NCBI GenBank assembly: GCA_030762935.1
Contig: CM060900.1
Location: forward strand, 369,659,132-369,723,131
DNA length: 64,000 nucleotides
DNA from: Hymenopus coronatus
Lineage: Eukaryota > Arthropoda > Insecta > Mantodea > Hymenopodidae
Direction of reading: 5' to 3'
The notes beneath the pieces were generated by a model that saw only the letters and a list, made by a program, of their open reading frames with translations, was not told the DNA's origin and ran no database searches. Position numbers and translations under genes: made by a program. This document shows, in pieces, positions 1-23,100 of this stretch (position 1 is the stretch's first letter; each line of letters opens with the position of its first letter).

Positions 1-2230
1 CAATCTAGGCCCAAGTGATATTAATGTTTTCAAAACTGGTTTATCTGATCGTTATGCTCAGGCAATCACATTTAGTTTGGGATTAAAGAACAATTATGAT
101 GATGGCATCCCCTTCCACAAAAAAGTGCGCCAGATGAATCAATCTAATTTAGAATACTTGAAATATCTACTAGAAAAAGAAACCTGGGAGGATGTACACT
201 TAGAAAAAACAGAAGAAATAAGCTTTAAATTAATAAATACCTTTAAATACTACTGTTACATGATTTTTCTTTGAATAACTAAAGGCATAAAAATATCCCG
301 GGATAGACTTAAGATTACTAAGCGAACAAATTAAAAGGAAAAATGTTTCTCAAGCATCAATTGCTTACTACAAAAAGTGTAAACAAATATACAAGCAACT
401 AATTGAAGCTGCTAAAACACTGGATAATTCAAAAAAGATTAATAGATCTGTCAACAAACAAAAAGTAATGTGGGAAATAATCAAAATGGAAACCAATCCA
501 AAATTCTTCTCTTTTAAAAATATAGAGCTACTGAAAGATAATACTACAGTAAATAACCCTGGAGAAGTAGCAAATGTTTTGAATGAACACTTTACTAAAA
601 TTACTGTAAATATACAAAACAGCAATAATGCAAAAGGAATTGAAAATTTTGTGCATGAGCTTTTTAACACACATTCACTGTTTCTGGAACCAACAAATGA
701 AGACAAAGTACTAAATATAATTAAAACTCTAAAGAACAAAAAATCTGAAGCACTAGACAGAAGTTCAAACTTTATAATAAAAAACTGTAGCAAATATTTT
801 ATCAAGCCATTATGTTATCTACCTAACCATTCCACAGAAAGTGGAGTATTTCCTCAAGATTTGAAAATGGCAAAAATTAAACCCATCTTCAAAAAGAGCA
901 ACCAACAAGATGCTAACAATTACAGACCAATAGCAGCACCATCAGCCTTCTTAAAAATATTGGAAAAACTAATGTAAAAACAGGCTTTAAAGTTCCTAAA
1001 AAAGTACAATATTATCAATGTTTGACAGTTTTGATTTGAAATCAACAAATCCACTAACATGGCTATAATGAATTTTGTTAATGACATGACGATATTCGAG
1101 ACAAACGCAAGCTACGCATGAGACTATTCCTGAATCTTATCAAAACTTTTGACATGGTTGACCACAAAATACTACTAAGCAAACTGCACAAAAGCAGAGT
1201 CAGAGGTGCTGCATTAAATTGGTCTAAATCATACCTTAGCAAAAGAGATAAAGTAGTAGAGATCGACTACATGGAACCTAATGGGAAGGTATTAATGACC
1301 TAACAATCTCAAAGAAGAGAACTTCAAGCTGGAGTTCCACAAGGCTTGATTTTAGGTCTCGTCTTATTTTACTCTACATCAATGATTTACCTCAACATAT
1401 AAAAACAATCAAGTATTCATGACCCTATTTGCATTTTCATTGAAAGGAAATTCAAGGAGAACCTAAATTAAAGCATCTCAGCCACTTAAATTCTAAATTG
1501 GTTTAAATCCAACAACTAGTGCTTAATGAAGATAAATCTGTGACAATGAACTTCATCAGAAAATATGCAAGACCTCTGTGGACTTCAATATCAAATTGGG
1601 ATTGAAATCTCTGGAAAATGTAACCCACACAAAGTTCTTGGGCCTATGGATTCATAGTAGCCTAAGCTGGCATAAGCATATTAAAAAACTAGCCATTAAA
1701 TTCAGTGAAAAATAAATGTTCTCCTGTACCAGTTAAATAAAAGAGTTTCAACAGAGACTCTAAGAACCTGCTATTTTGTGTATTTCCACTCACAGATATC
1801 ATATGGGATTGTATTGTGGGGTAACTCAGTTAACAGTAATTTAATTCTCAAACTGCAAAAAAAAGTCCATAAGAATAATCATGGGAATATCTAACACAGA
1901 AAATTGTTGTGAGCACTTTAAAAAATTAAATATTCTAGCATTACCGTGTTTATACATAAAAGAACTACTAGTTCATGTTAACAAAAATATAACATGTCTC
2001 TTAACCAATGCTGAGATACATACATATAATACTAGATATAAAAATAATCTGCATGTGAGCTTTCAAAAAACAATCTCTTTGAGAAATCATTTAAACATAC
2101 TGGAATTAAACTGTACAATCATCTTCTTATATATTTGAAAAACCAAAGTTGCATATAAAAATTAAAAATTGAAATCTATAAATTCCTACTTAATAATCAG
2201 TTCTATTCAATGAAATTTAAGGGCCACGGA
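1..2230 (+). mobile_element. Decayed non-LTR retrotransposon (LINE-C), 5' cut by window edge
   Basis: A degenerate reverse transcriptase reads on the plus strand in several frames. The frame at 468-977 carries a finger-region block (AKIKPIFKKSNQQ then NNYRPIA). At 1118-1303 there is a decayed motif A stretch (TFDMVDHKILLSKL). At about 1330-1370 a motif B remnant reads ELQAGVPQGLILG. At 2060-2230 the C-terminal tail typical of these polyproteins (HTGIKLYNHL) follows in other frames. No YADD box is intact and there are many stops, so this is a fossil. The block style resembles CR1/jockey-group LINEs, but the clade is not settled. The endonuclease half is not visible and may lie before base 1. 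No polyA or target duplication was found. Confidence 0.75.
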
Positions 2231-3162
2231 ATACGTAAGATTTGAAATTATGTGAATTGCATAATCTGTACCACTTAATAACTACTTATACAAATAAATT
2301 ACTTTTATGGGGTCTGTTAAATGTCTGAGAACTACCATGATGAATTAGTAAACAGGAAGAAGAATGCACCATCAGCTATGGAGAAGACTAAGTGGCTGCA
2401 ATCACTTCAAGAAATCTTATTTTATATTAAATTGGTCATTGTTTATAATTCATTTAAGGAGTATAATGGGTGTACATAATGTATATTTTTCCAATAATGT
2501 ATCTTGTATTTCAATTATAACTTCCTGTACATAGAAATTTTATCTTGTTAGTTTATTAGTGTACTTTCAAGAAGTATTTTGTAATTTTCAGATGTTTACA
2601 TTTGATGAAGCCAATATTAGCTTTTTACAAGCACCAGAGGATCTTTAAATGACACATCATCATCTTGGTCCCAAAAAGTTACTCCATTAAAAAAGAATAT
2701 TGAATTCAAAATTAAAAGATAACATTCCACAGTAAAACAAGCCAAGAATGTACCAATGCAGATGCAATGACTGTGAGAAAATTTACATTGTGATGTAGTG
2801 TTGCAAAAATTAAGTCACCAATTAAATTCAGCTGATTAGAACATGTCACTATCACAAAGTAAACCACAGAGTGCAATTTTAATTAATATCAATGTGTTAT
2901 ATCTATTGTTATTTCTTAATTGCAATTTGATTTCATGGGTTACATATAATACAAGAAAATGCTGTGCAACATTACATGAAGTACAATATTTCATGGAAAA
3001 TTGTTATACCTGATACTAAAAGCAAATTACTTTTCATATAAAATTACCAATGTGTTCTGAAAGAGTTCTGTTGGCAAAGAGATTTGTGTAAATATAAGTT
3101 TATGATACTGCCAAGACTTATCAGGTCTAGTCAAGTTTTGTCCAACCTTTGTCAAATATTTT
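2231..3162. other. No gene seen
   Basis: AT-rich sequence without a convincing reading frame, tRNA-like head or terminal repeat. It lies between LINE-C and the recognisable start of LINE-A. Confidence 0.5.
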
Positions 3163-3441
3163 TCAACATTTTACAGCTTTCTTGATAACACGAAAAATTA
3201 GAAAAAGCATTAGAGCTACTAAAACTACCAGTAAAATAAGCAAAAATAGAATTAAGACATGTAAAGCTACAAATGAGAAAAAATTAGTTTGTTGAAAAAT
3301 GCAGATCAGGTAAAGAACTAGGAATTGAAAGAGCTTATCAGGTGGAGGGGAGCTAAAAAGGAATTGGAAAGACAAAAATCTGATGAGCTCTAAATGGGGA
3401 TATGTCTATTAGAGAAAAAGAAAAAGGAATGGCAAGAAAAG

Positions 3442-3679
3442 CTGGAGCCGTGGCTGAGTGGTTCAACCACCTGCCTCTCACTAGGGTGGCCCAGTTCGAT
3501 TCCAAGTGATTGCATGTGGGACTTGTGGTGGGCAAAGCAGCACAGAGGCAGGTCTTCTGGGTTCTTTGGTTTACCCCACCATTGCATTCCACTGGTGCTC
3601 CAGCTTCATTCCATGTATCATCAGTGTCATCACCTGCAATGTCATGGTAGAAAAAGCGAATGCTAAATAATATTAAAAC
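3442..3679 (+). mobile_element. tRNA-derived SINE (family S1) with 14-bp target duplication
   Basis: The head holds an A box (TGGCTGAGTGG) and a B box (AGTTCGATTCC) like a class II (Ser/Leu) tRNA promoter for RNA polymerase III. A conserved body runs to an AT-rich tail. It is flanked by exact 14-bp direct repeats AATGGCAAGAAAAG at 3428-3441 and 3680-3693, so both ends are fixed. The body matches the second S1 copy at 17467-17731. It sits inside LINE-A. Long reading frames across it are fortuitous. Confidence 0.9.
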
Positions 3680-3744
3680 AATGGCAAGAAAAGATGGAAA
3701 AGAAATTGAAAGAAGAATAGAAGGAAAAGATATAATAATTAATC

Positions 3745-3745
<1 letters not shown>

Positions 3746-3810
<65 letters not shown>
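3746..3810. repeat. (TAA)n microsatellite
   Basis: About 21 nearly uninterrupted TAA units inside the LINE-A relic. Confidence 0.97.
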
Positions 3811-3811
<1 letters not shown>

Positions 3812-4112
3812 TGAGAAGGGTGAACAAAAAGGATAAAAAAACCAACAAAATCACGCCAAATGAATGGGTAAAATATTCTAAAAGACTGAACAGAGAAAGG
3901 AAAGAATTACAATTAGAACTAAATTTCTAGACCAGAGAGTAATAATGAGAAATTAGATGGCAAAATGACAAGGATGGAAGTTTGTTCACAAATAAGAAGT
4001 ATAAAGTCAGGTAAAGCAGAATAGATGAAATTTCAGTGGAATTCTGGAAATGATATGGGGAAACACAAAGTGGATTACAGATAATGATAGAATTATCATA
4101 TAAAATTAAAGC

Positions 4113-4124
4113 TAAATATAATAT
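4113..4124. repeat. Left 12-bp target-site duplication of the Penelope composite
   Basis: TAAATATAATAT occurs here and again at 6103-6114, exactly flanking the inverted Penelope pair. Only one copy is needed to keep the LINE-A frame running. Confidence 0.88.
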
Positions 4125-4166
4125 TCAAAATCTTCTCGGGCTTCTAGCCAGGTAAAAACTTGGCTT

Positions 4167-4207
4167 GACACCAACGTTTCGAAGAAGTACATCTTCCTCG
4201 TCTTCAG
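4167..4207 (-). ncRNA. Hammerhead-like core, left Penelope copy
   Basis: Mirror copy of the motif at 5984-6024, in the 3' tail of the left element. The same core boxes are present in the same spacing. Confidence 0.4.
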
Positions 4208-4428
4208 GGTGAACTGATGGTTTGAGCTTGCGGAGACTGGTATTTATAAGAGCTGGGATGAAGCTAACATCTGATTGGTTCGCGAGATATTATGGCCTGG
4301 TATTTAAGATGACTGAGACATTGGCACGGACTTCGTAGAAAACTATTTATAGCAGTTATTCGGCTAATGTTTTGTATTTGAGCATGCACCTGCTAGAAAA
4401 TAAGTCTTGGAAGACTGCAGGTACAGGG

Positions 4429-5121
4429 TTAGGTGTTAAGGCTCTTTATCATCGGTGTCCATGCTGAACTTAATTGTAGGCCAGAATCGCGATTTAGATT
4501 ATTTGTTTCAGATGAGATGGCTAAAGCTTCTTTTACTCTCCTTTCCCAGTAGTTCGAACACTTTGCCACTATCTTGGTGTTAGTAAAGTTAGCTCTGTGG
4601 CTCTGTTCTATACAGTGTTCAGCCAGTCCAGATTTTTCGGGTTGCATAAGCCTTATTGATCTTTGGTGTTCAGAAACGCGTGTGGCAATAGTGCGTCCTG
4701 TTTGGCCAATGTACGCTGCGCTGCATTCGCAAGGAATGTGGTAGACACCAGGTACTCTGAGAGCTAGATTATCTTTAACTGGCCTGACCAAATTTTTTAT
4801 TTTAGGTGGTGGCTTATGGATGGTTTTGACATTATATTTGTAGAGTAGTCTACTAATCTTTCCCGAAAAATTGCCGGTAAACGGTATATAGGCTATGGCG
4901 GCTGGCTTGTCTTTTTGTTGAGTGTTCTTGCTGGGGTTTCTTTTTCGTCCGGCTCTTTTCAGCGCTGATGTGATGTCCTTGGCTGAATATCCATTTTGTT
5001 GGAGTGTGAATTTTAGGTGTTGAAATTCCGTTTGCAGATTATCTGGGTCTGATACAGAAACTGCTCTATGTGCCAATGTATTTAGAATGCCCATTCGTTG
5101 TGACTTAAAATACATTGGCAC
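4429..5121 (-). CDS. Penelope-like GIY-YIG endonuclease fragment, left copy
   Basis: This open frame encodes the C-terminal GIY-YIG nuclease region of a Penelope-like polyprotein, which nicks target DNA for primed reverse transcription. Visible features are a connector rich in basic residues, then VYHIPCECSAAYIGQTGRT with the GIY-YIG tyrosines, the catalytic-region arginine in TRVSEH, and a downstream histidine block (LAEHCIEQSH). The frame ends at TAA on 4429. The reverse transcriptase that should precede it is missing, so the ATG in use is not native. The first residues (MPMYFK) are read from the start of the opposite copy across the junction; KSQRMGILNTL probably belongs to the original polyprotein. 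The shared part looks identical in protein sequence to the right copy. Confidence 0.88.
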   Translation of the reverse strand: MPMYFKSQRMGILNTLAHRAVSVSDPDNLQTEFQHLKFTLQQNGYSAKDITSALKRAGRKRNPSKNTQQKDKPAAIAYIPFTGNFSGKISRLLYKYNVKTIHKPPPKIKNLVRPVKDNLALRVPGVYHIPCECSAAYIGQTGRTIATRVSEHQRSIRLMQPEKSGLAEHCIEQSHRANFTNTKIVAKCSNYWERRVKEALAISSETNNLNRDSGLQLSSAWTPMIKSLNT

Positions 5122-5762
5122 ATAGAGCAGTTTCTGTATCAGACCCAGATAATCTGCAAACGGAATTTCAACACCTAAAATTCACACTCCAACAAAATGG
5201 ATATTCAGCCAAGGACATCACATCAGCGCTGAAAAGAGCCGGACGAAAAAGAAACCCCAGCAAGAACACTCAACAAAAAGACAAGCCAGCCGCCATAGCC
5301 TATATACCGTTTACCGGCAATTTTTCGGGAAAGATTAGTAGACTACTCTACAAATATAATGTCAAAACCATCCATAAGCCACCACCTAAAATAAAAAATT
5401 TGGTCAGGCCAGTTAAAGATAATCTAGCTCTCAGAGTACCTGGTGTCTACCACATTCCTTGCGAATGCAGCGCAGCGTACATTGGCCAAACAGGACGCAC
5501 TATTGCCACACGCGTTTCTGAACACCAAAGATCAATAAGGCTTATGCAACCCGAAAAATCTGGACTGGCTGAACACTGTATAGAACAGAGCCACAGAGCT
5601 AACTTTACTAACACCAAGATAGTGGCAAAGTGTTCGAACTACTGGGAAAGGAGAGTAAAAGAAGCTTTAGCCATCTCATCTGAAACAAATAATCTAAATC
5701 GCGATTCTGGCCTACAATTAAGTTCAGCATGGACACCGATGATAAAGAGCCTTAACACCTAA
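5115..5762 (+). CDS. Penelope-like GIY-YIG endonuclease fragment, right copy
   Basis: Mirror image of the minus-strand frame. It encodes about 215 residues with the same PCECSAAYIGQTGRT nuclease core, TRVSEH and the HCIEQSH block, ending in SLNT and a stop at 5760-5762. It lacks the upstream reverse transcriptase, so it is a 5'-truncated piece and the apparent start is accidental. The intact frame in both arms shows little decay, unlike the surrounding LINE-A. A roughly 300-bp 3' untranslated tail follows, including a hammerhead-like motif at 5984-6024. Confidence 0.9.
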   Translation: MAHRAVSVSDPDNLQTEFQHLKFTLQQNGYSAKDITSALKRAGRKRNPSKNTQQKDKPAAIAYIPFTGNFSGKISRLLYKYNVKTIHKPPPKIKNLVRPVKDNLALRVPGVYHIPCECSAAYIGQTGRTIATRVSEHQRSIRLMQPEKSGLAEHCIEQSHRANFTNTKIVAKCSNYWERRVKEALAISSETNNLNRDSGLQLSSAWTPMIKSLNT

Positions 5763-5983
5763 CCCTGTACCTGCAGTCTTCCAAGACTTATTTTCTAGCA
5801 GGTGCGTGCTCAAATACAAAACATTAGCCGAATAACTGCTATAAATAGTTTTCTACGAAGTCCGTGCCAATGTCTCAGTCATCTTAAATACCAGGCCATA
5901 ATATCTCGCGAACCAATCAGATGTTAGCTTCATCCCAGCTCTTATAAATACCAGTCTCCGCAAGCTCAAACCATCAGTTCACC

Positions 5984-6024
5984 CTGAAGACGAGGAAGAT
6001 GTACTTCTTCGAAACGTTGGTGTC
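5984..6024 (+). ncRNA. Hammerhead-ribozyme-like core, right Penelope copy
   Basis: Boxes occur in hammerhead order: CTGAAGA (5984-5990), a 7-bp stem II GAGGAAG/CTTCTTC with a five-base loop, GAAA (6011-6014), a very short stem III, and GTC at 6022-6024. One extra C precedes stem II and I cannot draw a convincing stem I, so self-cleavage is doubtful. Hammerhead motifs in Penelope-like elements are established knowledge. Confidence 0.45.
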
Positions 6025-6102
6025 AAGCCAAGTTTTTACCTGGCTAGAAGCCCGAGAAGATTTTGAATTAACACGTCGCCAGGAAAGCTTTAGTTCTTAT
6101 TT

Positions 6103-6114
6103 TAAATATAATAT
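6103..6114. repeat. Right 12-bp target-site duplication of the Penelope composite
   Basis: TAAATATAATAT, identical to 4113-4124. Confidence 0.88.
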
Positions 6115-6784
6115 ATTGGAACGCTAAAAAGTAAGTATGGTGATGCCAATTTATGTAGGGCAGGGTGGAGTAAACAAACTAGAGAATTATAGAGGAATAA
6201 GCCTATAATTTAGTTAGGGAAAGTGTACACAGAAATTCTGGCACAGAGATTAAGAGAGTAATATAATACATTTATAATAAAAAATATCATAGACAATTAT
6301 CTGAACAAAAAGAGAGGAGGGGTTTGTTTTTCTGCAGACATTTGAATAAGTGTTTTACTCAATAACTAGAAAAGATTATAAACTAAGAGGAAAGGCAGCA
6401 AGTGAAAATTTTATAAAATAAATTAGGACAATTACAAAGAGCTGAAATTCTTTACAAGATGGTTGAACAACTGTATTACAGAGATGAAAGGAAAAGTAGG
6501 GCTAAGGCTAAAGCTGAGCCCTGTACTACTCAACCTATTCATAGGCAATATATTAAATATGTAAAGGAAAGAAACCAGCACTATCTGGTAATGGCAGATA
6601 AAAAAAAATATCAGGATGATTATGATGATTTTTATTGTTATTAGGAAGTTTAATGTCCTTTAACCTGGAAGGTCATATTTGAGGATGAATGAAATAGGCA
6701 AAATTAAGCTCAAATAAACTTGCAGTAAATAGGGCTTAAAATGAACATGCCATTTGACTTCTCAGGATAAAGGAAAAACCTTAT

Positions 6785-6880
6785 AAAAAGCCTTATCCGG
6801 ATAACTCAACCAAACCAACATTTGAACTAGGGACCTCTTGAATGTGAGGCAGACCTATTACCCCCACAATATGGTAGTGG
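6785..6880 (-). mobile_element. tRNA-like SINE head
   Basis: Read on the minus strand this has an A-box-like GGGGGTAATAGG and a B-box-like AGTTCAAATGT in tRNA spacing. No defined tail or target duplication was seen. Confidence 0.45.
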
Positions 6881-6940
6881 GCTATCATCATTATTATTAT
6901 TATTCAGATGACCTTATGGTAGGGGGCCATATTCATAGTA

Positions 6941-8035
6941 TAAGGGTTTGATAATTCCGATAAAAGGAAAAAAAAAAAAGTTTATTTTGCAAACAACTCA
7001 TCTTACTTCTTGACATAATCTCTGTTAAGGAGTATTCACTTTGGTCAGTGATCCTCAAGTTTCTTCATCATGCTGGAAAAATAGGTTTTGTCAAACTCTG
7101 CAAAATACTCACTGATTGCAACTATCACTTTCTCATTTTAGTGAAAATTTCTTCCTATCAAGCCAAAGTTTCAAGCTAGGGAACAGGAAGTAGTCACTTG
7201 GGGCTAAGTCTGACGAATATAGCCAAACGAATACAAAGCCCAATTCATGCAATTTCATTATCACTAATGGGTGGGTTGGTGCATTATTGTGGTGAAAGAG
7301 CACTTTTCTGCATGCCTATCTTGGTTTTTTTCAGCCAATGCAAGTTTCAAACAATCCAATAATGAAACATAAGGTCCAATTATGGTTCTGTCTTTTTCCA
7401 ACTAATCTACGAGGATTATTCTTTAGGAATACCACAAAACTCACCTTACCAGCTGACAAAATGAATTTTGCCTTCTTTGGTGCTCTTTTATCAGCCTTTG
7501 TCTATTGTTTTGAATGCAGTTTTGACTCTGGTAAGTAATGATGGCTCCAGGTTTCATCAAGTTGGCACAAATTGGCACAAAAAGTCTTGCAGATTGCGAT
7601 TTGCCAAACATTGTACTGAAATGCTGTTCCAAATATGCTTTTGATCGACTGTGAGAAATTGCAGCACCCACCATGCACACAGCTTCTTCATAGCCAATCC
7701 TCCACTCATTAAGTTGAGATCCCTGCAGACTTGGCAATCTCTCAAATTTTTACTTGGCTGCCTTGCATTACCATATCATGGATTTTATCAATGGTCACCT
7801 CTGTGGTGACCTCAATTGGATGACCAGAGCGTGCTTTGTCTTTAGTGCTTGTTCAACCATGTTTAAATTCATTAATCCAAAAGTCTTTGATGTGGTTTAG
7901 CATCTGCATGAACTTCACTCAATCTGTTTTGATTTGTGTGACAGTCCAACCCTTCAAATAGAAATGCTTAATAACAGCACAAAACCTTTCCATTCCTTCA
8001 TGAAAATTTACGAGACTTATCAATCCACCCTCGAA
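6941..8035 (-). pseudogene. Mariner transposase pseudogene with terminal inverted repeats (MLE-1)
   Basis: Imperfect terminal inverted repeats (left AGGGTTTGATAATTCCG, right read inward GAGGGTGGATTGATAAGTC) are flanked by TA at 6939-6940 and 8036-8037. The minus strand encodes, in order and across several frames, the N-terminal helix-turn-helix (MERFCAVIKHFYLKGWTV), SGHPIEVTTE, KKLCAWWV, a DETW box near 7545, HHNNAPTH near 7290 where the family has HHDNAPVH, SDLAPSDYF, and a C-terminal FAEFDKTYF. The second catalytic Asp is changed to Asn, and there are stops and frameshifts, so it is dead. It interrupts LINE-A. Known role of the family: DD34D cut-and-paste transposition at TA. Confidence 0.85.
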
Positions 8036-8284
8036 TACAGTGAGAGATCAATAAAATGCAGAAAGTTTCCGAATAAGGAAGATAAATGAATCAAAGGTTA
8101 CAGTATTTACAAAAGGAACCAATTAAAGAAAAAGTAAAACTGGTTCTTGGGCAGACTAAAACTGGAAGTTGTCAAAAGAGTAGAGAATGGGGGGGTTTGC
8201 ATATCTGAAATGTGGTAGGTAAAGTAAGGCAACCATGAAGGAATACAGATATGTAAATATAAGCTGGAAATAACATACAAAATA

Positions 8285-9732
8285 CGAGGGTTGGGGCAAA
8301 AGTCATGCAACTATTTATTTTCTTGAAGATACCAATCCCGTTGGAAAATGTTATATATACAGATGAAAGGACAAGGTGTTAACTACATGTGTGGACAATG
8401 AACATCATAATGCACTTATTTATTACGGTAGTATACAGGGCAATATGGCCTTCACAGTGCAAAAGAATGACAACACAGTACACATACAGTTAACATGACA
8501 AACCTGGACCTAAAGATCCTCAAAGTAGTCCCCTGCTACTGTCCCCACATGCTGCCAATGATGTGGGAGGCGCTGAATATCTGTCACAGTATTTGCCACA
8601 CCATGTGTGAATCGGGTCATCTGTTCATGCACAGCATTAGCAATGTCCTCTCGTCTTGCAAATCGCCTATTACATAGTGGTTCCTTAATCTTTCGAATGA
8701 GATCAAAGTCACAGGGCAAAATGTTGGGAGAGCACGGTGGGTGCTCCAATTCTTCCCATCCCCAACATAGCAGTAGCTGCCCTACACACTCTGCTTTATG
8801 TGGTTTTGCATTGTCATGCAGGATTATTGCACTGTCCACAAGATCTGGACGCTTGTACCTGTCACACCAGGAAGTCCCTGGAGTACTGTGCGGTCACTGT
8901 TCTGCCATGTGGAACAAAGCGGCAAATAATGACACTCCTGATGTCATATGCGAGGATCACCATCAATTTGACTGAGGAAGGATTCTGATGGAGCTTCTGC
9001 TGCCTTGGCGATCTAGCATGTAGCCACTCCACAGACTGACGTTTCAGTTCTTGGCCCAAAATTCATCGATGGCAATTATTCGTGACAAGAATTGATTGCC
9101 ATTCTGTTGCCAGCGTACAAGGTGGTCGGAGCATATTGCATACTGCATCCACCTTTGAACTTCTGTCGGTGCATGCGGTACCCACCGCGATGCAATTTTG
9201 CGTAGTTGCAGCTCATTATGCAATATCACGTGGACGGTGCATTTCTCAATGCCATTGTCCTCTCTAACTCCAGTAGCGTCCATGTCTGTCTTCATCCAGG
9301 AGCTGCTCGATGACGGCATGTGCCATGTCGGTCCACACACTGACAGGTCATCCCGAACATTGCTCATCACTGGTTGCCACACATCCTTGCTGAAACTTTC
9401 CTACTGTTACTGTATGGCATGGTAGGGCATTGTTCCCAAGGGCTTCCGCTAATTCACTGTGACATTCCGTCACATTTCTCCCTCGGAGAACTGCTATTTT
9501 AATACAAGCGCGCTGCTCAACACGAGTTACTTCCATCTTGCATGACACTCACCATCTGACTGATTTCACAGCCCTCGCTGCACTACTGCCAGCTATCACG
9601 GAACCATCTGTTGTTCTGCATACACACTATGCCTGCAGAACTTCCATGCGACACATATACGTTTGTGATCTGTTCACATATCTAAAAGAAAAAAAAAAAA
9701 ACTAGTTGCCATGACTTTTGCCCCAATCTTCA
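8285..9732 (-). pseudogene. Mariner element with DD34D transposase remnants (MLE-2)
   Basis: Strong terminal inverted repeats share TTGGGGCAAAAGTCATG and are flanked by TA at 8283-8284 and 9733-9734. The element is 1,448 bp, near the usual mariner length. On the minus strand the transposase is spread over frames at 9548-9348 (helix-turn-helix, VEQRACIKIAVL), 9382-9044 (ending AIDEFW, first catalytic Asp), 9059-8862 (KRQSVEWLHARSPR) and 8839-8510 (ILHDN, then LPCDFD). Exactly 34 residues separate the last two catalytic aspartates, the mariner hallmark. Frameshifts between the frames make it inactive. It sits in LINE-A sequence and is distinct from MLE-1. Confidence 0.92.
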
Positions 9733-20138: not shown

Positions 20139-23100
20139 TTTAACTGATGCTTCCTTTTCTTCTTTCCCTTTTTTTCTGTTACTTATTAATGAATGCCTTT
20201 GGGAAGAAGCTGGATTCAAGTCTTTAGTATGAGACCGAGTTGTATTTGTGTAAATGACCTTTGAAGCTTGAGTAGATGCTGGAATTTTTATTCTATGTAA
20301 GATTATCCTCACTTCTTTGGTGATTAGCGGATGCACATACTTTTCACTTTTCCTGCTGTTTTTGGATGTACGTTTTGCCAATGGTTTTGGGTGTGATTTT
20401 AAGGTATTAGTTGAAAGGAATGGACATGCAGGAAGATTTGTATGTTTTACTGGAGGAATTTTTCTTCTTGGCACTGTAGTAATTCTTGTTTTCCTTTTAA
20501 CATCTGAACTTGATGCCAATGGTTTTGGATGTATCTTCTTATTTTTATCATCCTCATCAAGAGTATTTGCAGCAGGTTGAGAATTTATGGAAATTCTTAG
20601 TTCTTCAAAACAGTTTATCAGAGTACCTTCAATGCCTAAATCCATTAGATTTGAAATGTAACCACTGTCTATCTGCTCAACTACTACCACTTCATTTGGA
20701 TCATTTAAAACATATGGTGAGCACGGACGGATACTATGACTGGATAGCATTTCAGTATTGGATACTGCCTCCAACTGTCTGGAACCACCCATCTCTGATG
20801 GTGACTCACTCCCTGTAGTTGAAACCAAGAGAGGAGGAGGCGAAGGACTACTTTCTGCTGTTATACGGGCAATATACTCTGGAAGTTCTTCAGTATAATC
20901 TCCAATAGGATCTTCTATTTCTTCATTAATAGTTTCAGATGGTCTTGGACGAAACACATCATATAAGTCCCATGGGTATGAATCAAGATTTTCAGTTACT
21001 GCTTCCTTCTTTGCTAGTACTGATCTTGGAAATTTCCCTAAATAGAGCAAGTCATCATCGTCATCATCATCAGCATAATCCTCATCTATACCAGCATTGG
21101 GTGGAGCAAATCCTCTGAATCCATCTGAATGGGATGCAACAGTAATAGGGTTATTACAACTGACGAGAAGAGCATCTGCTATCGGTTCTTTATTACCTAC
21201 AACCAGTGGTTGTGTAAAAGCCTCAACTACTTCTTCTGCTGTTTCAGATATAAACGTGTTGTGTCTGTCAAAGCCAGTGGAGGGAATATGTGGTGAATCT
21301 TTACAAGAAGGAGCAGATATGGGCCTTTGTTGAGGAGAACTGCTGCTTTGTGACTTATGGAGTTTTGCTTTTTTCCTGCTGATTTCCACACTTGATACTA
21401 ATCTAGGACTACTTTCTGCTGATTTACGGGCAATATACTCTGAAAGTTCTTCAGTATAATCTCCAATAGGATCTTTTATTTCTTCATTAATAGTTTCAGA
21501 TGGTCTTGGACTAACCACATCATGTAAGTCCCATGGGTATGTATCAAGATTTTCAGTTACTGCTTCCTTCTTTGCTAGTACTGATCTTGGAAATGTACCT
21601 AAATAGAGCAAGTCATCATCGTCGTCATCATCATCATAAGCATAATCCTCATCTACACCAGCATTGGGTGGAGCAAATCCTCTGAATCCATCTGAATGGG
21701 ATGCAACAGTAATAGGTTTATTACAACTGATGAGAAGAGCATCTGCTATCGGTTCTTTATCACCTACAACCAGTGGTTGTGTAAAAGCATCCACTTCTAC
21801 TTCTGCTGTTTCAGATATAAACGTGTTGTGTGTGTCAAAGCCAGTGGAGGGAATATATGGTGAATCTTTACAAGAAGGAGCAGATATGGGCCTTTGTTGA
21901 GGAGAACTGCTGCTTTGTGACTTATGGAGTTTTGCTTTTTTCCTGCTGATTTCCACACTTGATACTAATCTAGGACTACTTTCTGCTGATTTACAGGCAA
22001 TATACTCTGAAAGTTCTTCAGTATAATCTCCAATAGGATCTTTTATTTCTTCATTAATAGTTTCAGATGGTCTTGGACTAACCACATCATGTATATCAAG
22101 ATTTTCAGTTACTGCTTCCTTCTTTGCTAGTACTGATCTTGGAAATTTCCCTAAATAGAGCAAGTCATCATCGTCGTCATCATCATCATAAGCATAATCC
22201 TCATCTACACCAGCATTGGGTGGAGCAAATCCTATGAATCCATCTGAATGGGATGCAACAGTAATAGGTTTATTACAACTGATGAGAAGAGCATCTGCTA
22301 TCGGTTCTTTATCACCTACAACCAGTGGTTGTGTAAAAGCATCCACTTCTACTTCTGCTGTTTCAGATATAAACGTGTTGTGTGTGTCAAAGCCAGTGGA
22401 GGGAATATATGGTGAATCTTTAAAAGAAGGAGCAGATATGGGCCTTTGTTGAGGAGAACTGCTGCTTTGTGACTTATGGAGTTTTGCTTTTTTCCTGCTG
22501 ATTTCCACACTTGATACTAATCTGCACGGAAGTGCATTCACATTTTTCTGAACTCCACACATTACATCATCATTTATCTGTTCTGTGCTTGTTAAGATGC
22601 TTTTTGCATTAAAGCTGGTAGTAGAGGTTTGAAGATCTGGAGCAGAAGGGCTAGGTGAAATATTCTCTTTTATTCTCTTCTGTTTCTTAGTGCCTGGCGA
22701 ACTGTGAATTTTTTGAGTCCTTCTTTTCTTAGTGGTGGGTGAATCTTCTCTGTTTCTGGGGTTTATTATCTCTTTATTTCCTCTTATTGGTAATGTTCTT
22801 GGTTGATTTCTGTGCTCAGTTTCAGATTTTGTACCTTTACTCACTTTTTTTTTATCCAGAGCATGCGCTCTCCTGGGTAGTAAAAACTGAGCAGCTTCAA
22901 CTTTAGGAGAACAGATAGACAGTGACATTACCTTAGGGACACTTTGATTTCGATCTGCAGGTGATTTAGGAGGTACGGAAGAGAGAGCATGTTCTTTCCG
23001 AGGTACTAAGAACTGGCCGGCATCTATCCTTGGAATACATATGGTCAGTGTTTTAGTAATATGTGGCAAAGAGAGTGCCTTATGAACATTAGTGTTTAGA

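Follow-up and report, generated by a model that had tools for sequence, protein, structure and literature searches.

How does a Penelope-like element come to lie in a genome as two inverted copies of its own 3′ end inside one target duplication? The question is raised by a palindrome in a 64,000-nucleotide stretch of the Hymenopus coronatus genome (the window). We consider it reasonably probable that this palindrome is the normal two-armed product of Penelope insertion, in which both target strands prime synthesis, one from each of two start sites.

The palindrome consists of two head-to-head arms (4123-5083 and 5108-6068) of 961 nt each, which differ by one mismatch at arm position 699 and are flanked by a single 12-bp duplication, with the terminal 34 nt of the element present on the right copy only (Table 1). 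In these three respects an earlier, sequence-only reading of the locus was borne out. A repeat of 10 bp in like placement was encountered once in 20000 random pairs of window positions, and a longer one in none. Positions within the element are given against a genomic copy used as reference unit U (L032:5173-7825, 2653 bp). Measured in this way, the left arm runs from U2619 to U1635 and the right arm from U1659 to U2653, the two abutting at 5107/5108; the 24 nt at 5084-5107, previously taken for a spacer, are the 5′ end of the left arm (U1658-1635). Elsewhere in the window (20844-22470), three tandem copies of ~ 560 bp were seen, mostly 94-95% alike.

Table 1. Parts of the inverted Penelope pair and its flanks, in window positions, with element positions on reference unit U
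Feature	Position	Strand	Remarks
Left target site duplication copy TAAATATAATAT, 12 bp	4113..4124		Last 2 bases equally countable as element
Right target site duplication copy, 12 bp	6103..6114		
Left arm, tailless, U2619 to U1635	4123..5107	-	5′-truncated; bears the putative C-terminal GIY-YIG part of the ORF
Central 24 nt, U1658-1635, left-arm 5′ end	5084..5107	-	Inverted in segmental copy L022
Right arm, U1659 to U2619	5108..6068	+	1 mismatch vs left arm
34-nt tail, U2620-2653	6069..6102	+	Right arm only
Stop-to-stop ORF fragment, 217 codons	5109..5762	+	C-terminal Penelope protein, including the putative GIY-YIG region
Hammerhead-like core (CTGAAGA ... GAAAC ... GTC)	5984..6024	+	Read by eye
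Left flank: decayed LINE reverse transcriptase, split by insertion	4024..4112	+	
Right flank: same decayed LINE	6115..6205	+	In frame after removing one duplication copy

Once the flanks were joined and a single duplication copy retained, a LINE reverse transcriptase frame was restored, and a local search aligned 64/64 residues of it gap-free (37.5% identity, E = 2.6e-10) to a LINE elsewhere in the window, on the minus strand at 26977-26786. The matching reverse transcriptase segment is better kept than the decayed LINE interrupted by the insertion, and is its kin. Because the duplication is single and the empty site gap-free, insertion of the window palindrome as one unit is supported, in line with the earlier proposal of a single integration event. 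An identical-edged insertion was found at two further places on the same contig (C21:369387581-369389560 and C21:369919566-369921545), within a duplicated stretch that corresponds to the left end of the window (1-9556) and to the extracted regions L021 (C21:369383001-369393000) and L022 (C21:369915001-369925000), which flank the window at distances of ~ 276 kb (left) and ~ 256 kb (right). One copy aligned to the window over 9542 bp with 0 mismatches and 1 gap, the other with 99.59% identity over 9559 bp. These are either segmental copies or assembly duplicates, and together with the window they were counted as one insertion. In L022 (5503-5550), the central 24 bp is opposite in orientation to that of the window and L021, while the flanks and the side of the tail are the same; recombination between the arms, a mismatch resolved at birth or a misassembly could each account for the inverted centre.

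Regarding the identity of the element, a 757-codon ORF in L032 contains an RVT_1 domain (E = 1.4e-12); the window copy, being 5′-truncated, is without it. The top two matches of the L032 ORF (73% and 75%) were proteins of Periplaneta americana; a protein of Anolis carolinensis showed 48% identity across 99% of this ORF and 40% to the 217-codon window fragment. The latter aligned over 216 residues to P0065, residues 516-586 of which score as GIY-YIG. The element thus appears, through this alignment, to carry a C-terminal GIY-YIG endonuclease, the domain itself being unscored by Pfam in a direct search of the window fragment and of the L032 ORF. Several features by which EN-containing Penelope-like elements are recognised were present: consecutive 2653-bp units in L032 and sequences running across the unit boundary in L026, L033, L035 and L042, giving tandem or partial tandem units with pseudo-LTRs; a 3′ tail of 34 nt, inside the 30-40 nt range for such elements, at one end per pair; and target duplications of variable length (9-15 bp in 18/24 loci) at sites that looked AT-rich by eye. 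Judged from its sequence, the element is an EN-containing Penelope-like element, probably of the Penelope/Poseidon type by its similarity to the Anolis carolinensis protein.

Relative to the ATG at 5999 that opens the ORF, the two outer ends of the palindrome are at 70 and 104 nt. A hammerhead-like GTC, the putative cut site, ends 26 nt beyond this ATG, inside the ORF. Rfam returned no hammerhead match at E values up to 1, and by eye the closing pair of stem II misfits; the matches that Rfam did give were miRNA models fitting the palindrome hairpin, all under their gathering scores, and were rejected. The predicted fold of the tail region was no better than that of shuffled sequences.

The genome was searched for further inverted pairs sharing one flanking duplication, as the sequence-only reading had suggested. 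The arm query yielded 46 matches from the 40 of 2230 candidates that were scored. Twenty-four loci (the window and L021-L043) were examined, the places left aside being seven single ones (on C12, C11 (two), C8, C6 (two) and C5) and an array on C9. In that array (G000:C9:103538438-103560867), Penelope copies recur every ~ 2654 bp, first on the minus and then on the plus strand, in a tandem, head-to-head arrangement. Eighteen of the 24 loci proved to be independent head-to-head pairs, each with a single 9-15 bp duplication (the last three were assigned by eye; at some loci the duplication overlaps the element end by a few bases). Two loci were segmental copies of the window, L031 held a single arm only, and the far end of L032 fell outside the stretch examined. 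L037 (5325-7429) and L039 (3563-7180) were inverted pairs with no clear target duplication, whose minus arms end off the start sites, at U829 and U2446, respectively. One locus, L043, contained an additional 446 bp inside its minus arm. In all 18 insertions, one outer end was located at U2652/2653 and the other at U2618-2624.

Since the query included the tail, the sample of 18 is biased to tailed copies, and pattern counts across the genome were made to lift this bias. A 23-mer from the 3′ end of the element was present at 8425 forward and 8296 reverse places, some of them segmental copies. In the first 100 places listed, which span the first 17.2 Mb of C1, all 31 pairs of neighbours separated by less than 1 kb were head-to-head. 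Genome-wide, 1766 short pairs with a core spacing of 140-170 were found, counted as exact-match places, some of which are segmental copies and not independent events. These had 1454 tailed ends (702 left, 752 right) and a single two-tailed place, the same one being found at a spacing of 138-168. Exactly one tail was thus borne by 1452 pairs and both by 1, while 313 fell into a class that pools changed with truly tailless ends; the numbers expected if tails were independent are ~ 855, ~ 299 and ~ 611, respectively. Likewise, at a spacing of 40-70 there were 789 tailed ends (388 and 401) and one two-tailed place (also one at 38-68), i.e. 787 one-tailed versus 1 two-tailed among tail-bearing pairs. 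The evidence on target duplications comes from the 24 fetched loci and does not extend to the short pairs. One tail per head-to-head pair is apparently a genome-wide rule. It seems to be new: neither the rule, nor the single-source test and the even loop count described below, was found in the literature searched, which left most subscription literature outside.

Both arms of a pair come from one template source. Within-pair differences amounted to 11 in 9112 positions in seven pairs with close 5′ ends and to 29 in 9610 positions in nine other pairs (including L032), and sites at which both alleles were known from other insertions numbered 0/11 and 1/29, respectively. Arms of different insertions differed by a mean of 4.43 such variants per kb across 480 comparisons, in the lowest of which none was seen. 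This count leaves out L041-L043, L037, L039 and the segmental copies. In the short pairs, a diagnostic variant agreed in 23/23 scorable cases (15 and 8; 30 pairs with sequence, seven of them unscorable), where independence would give 10.4 discordant pairs (P = 9e-7). In L024, L027, L034 and L035, an arm from a different insertion matched the tailless or minus arm as well as, or better than, the partner arm of the pair did; distance is uninformative for these pairs, and the differences in L027 are private. Indels account for the high raw distances measured in L039 and L040.

The inner, 5′ ends of the arms were distributed bimodally, lying 9-35 nt apart in 7/18 insertions and at least 342 nt apart in the other 11. 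When ends were reshuffled, seven pairs within 40 nt were obtained in 2/200000 trials; with a hot spot counted once, 5/16 was reached in 30/200000. The hot spot is at U1632-1659, where arms end in the window insertion (4123-6102), L023 and L027, all independent; it adjoins CCAT/ATGG and GAATG/CATTC inverted repeats of the element. At the joins of the fetched loci, the arms shared 0-5 bases or were separated by 2-11 nt of filler: that of L023 is located at the CCAT/ATGG repeat, and that of the window has 0 shared bases. Among 50 short pairs listed, total lengths of 174, 183 and 188 bp recurred (12, 8 and 6 times, respectively). A TCAG/CTGA hairpin with a 6-nt loop predicts 174 bp, while no stem of at least 4 bp predicted 183 or 188 bp. 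A 73-bp short pair that includes tail bases also recurs among the places listed. At the 174-bp join, the loop was part of the tailed arm 238 times and of the tailless arm 236 times (binomial p = 0.96), these being counts of places that include some segmental copies.

The reading we favour can be set out as follows. A GIY-YIG enzyme would cut the two target strands ~ 12 bp apart, probably leaving 3′ overhangs, and each target 3′ end would prime reverse transcription of element RNA. The cDNA begun at the outer start site would retain the 34-nt tail, and that begun at the inner site would be without it. Both would be read from one RNA, perhaps a single molecule, or from RNAs of one source. The 3′ ends of the cDNAs may then pair through a few bases of inverted homology, often the element’s own hairpin, and fill-in would leave a head-to-head palindrome with one target duplication. 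Two cDNAs of the same sense can pair only via inverted homology, so joins are expected at hairpins, with the loop on either arm equally often. Which target strand takes which cDNA, and annealing as the joining step, are presumed here. More tentatively, we propose that this is the standard Penelope product in this genome, that each strand is allotted one of the start sites, a protein dimer on one RNA probably being responsible, and that the element’s own hairpins serve as join sites. A narrower version, in which the enzyme starting at the inner site leads a convoy on one RNA and the tailless arm is consequently the longer, fitted 5/7 close-ended pairs and was dropped in view of the 238 versus 236 count.

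Closely spaced 5′ ends in seven insertions, joins at element hairpins (CCAT/ATGG in L023, TCAG/CTGA in the 174-bp class) and arms of one source would also be produced if a single target-primed cDNA folded back at its 3′ end and copied itself, the second arm being a DNA copy of the first. A copy, however, cannot hold a tail absent from its template, and the tailless arm is the longer one in 9/18 insertions, the window included, and at 236/474 joins of the 174-bp hairpin. With the longer arm tailless and the tail on the shorter, neither can be a full copy of the other, so such pairs cannot be the outcome of self-copying by one cDNA, except if the centre was subsequently inverted, as L022 illustrates; the segmental copy with its inverted centre weakens what can be concluded from the arm lengths of the window itself. 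Self-copying also leaves unexplained why the copy should stop at U2618-2624, the confinement expected of a second start of reverse transcription. We regard self-priming as unlikely, and two starts on the element RNA as the simpler account; if fold-back were followed by a further target-primed start, this would be a variant of the reading we favour. With regard to the earlier proposal, initiation at the right 3′ end fits the tailed right end, but the wider data, namely the nine insertions with a longer tailless arm and the narrow tailless end, disfavour second-strand synthesis or a template switch as the origin of the left arm.

The recurrent lengths of 174, 183 and 188 bp could suggest instead that short palindromes are a mobile unit in their own right, whose palindromic RNA, tailed at one end, is inserted from a single target-primed start so that the tail is simply inherited. 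Against this, one source variant was found at lengths 172, 174, 183 and 188, the 18 long insertions differ in their joins and are all one-tailed, and the model requires the palindromic RNA to start precisely at the tailless end, which makes the explanation distinctly unlikely. If both strands started at the outer site and repair trimmed one tail, one tail per pair would result provided that trimming were tied to joining; yet exactly one of the two ends must be hit every time, and the tailless ends are confined to U2618-2624 in 18/18 insertions, matching a second in-vitro start of reverse transcription (PMC11167929), and we consider trimming very unlikely. An assembly artefact or two independent insertions are extremely improbable: palindromes pose difficulties in assembly, and the centre is inverted in one segmental copy, but the single duplication, gap-free empty site and unequal arm ends speak against both, as do 17 further loci with this layout but different flanks and joins.

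In LINE-1 twin priming, two target ends prime on one RNA to give an inverted structure within one target duplication, the second primer landing at an internal place and the inverted segment being located 5′ of the direct one in the RNA. The insertions described here differ in that both outer ends are 3′ start sites of the element (in the window and 17 further insertions), although L037 resembles LINE-1 twin priming more. The Penelope of Drosophila virilis, of a different family, shows inverted or direct terminal repeats and a tail.

Closer to the present case are the Penelope elements of the rotifer Adineta vaga, for which a 2013 paper describes head-to-head inverted copies inside one 8-10 bp target duplication, a 31-bp tail optional on one inverted copy and palindromes at the inverted junctions, with self-priming on an antisense template proposed as the cause (PMC3846280). 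The inverted pair, single duplication, tail on one copy and palindromic junctions are shared with H. coronatus. The arrangement of two inverted copies, one of them tailed, is a known Penelope layout, and the window locus is thus an ordinary member. The rotifer proposal of self-priming concerned a handful of copies (PMC3846280), whereas 18 dissected insertions and genome-wide counts are available here and lead us to argue for two target-primed starts.

In-vitro data (PMC11167929) show that the Poseidon protein PAc of Anolis carolinensis cuts and extends both strands, with two starts of reverse transcription ~ 30-40 nt apart within the start of the ORF, the tail being the interval between them. 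The element studied here is like PAc in its ORF with RT and putative GIY-YIG parts, tandem units, tail between two starts and seemingly AT-rich targets; its hammerhead-like core would, if active, place a cut 26 nt into the ORF, where a possible ribozyme cut is placed in PAc as well. The main start of PAc is 111-118 nt into the ORF, compared to 70 and 104 nt for the ends in H. coronatus. The use of start sites by PAc in vitro was alike on top and bottom strands (PMC11167929), which is compatible with one start site of each kind per insertion, rather than proof of it. The 2024 work describes in-vitro first-strand products and leaves later steps unvalidated (PMC11167929); the products in H. coronatus are joined, two-armed and genomic.

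On the question of how Penelope elements complete their insertion, the H. coronatus genome offers a large number of fixed end products for counting. The interest of the finding lies in the genome-wide regularity, more than in the window locus. The one-tail rule, the single-source arms and the even orientation of the loop point to priming by both strands, with both start sites used together. Such paired use of the start sites would explain why the ‘optional’ tail exists.
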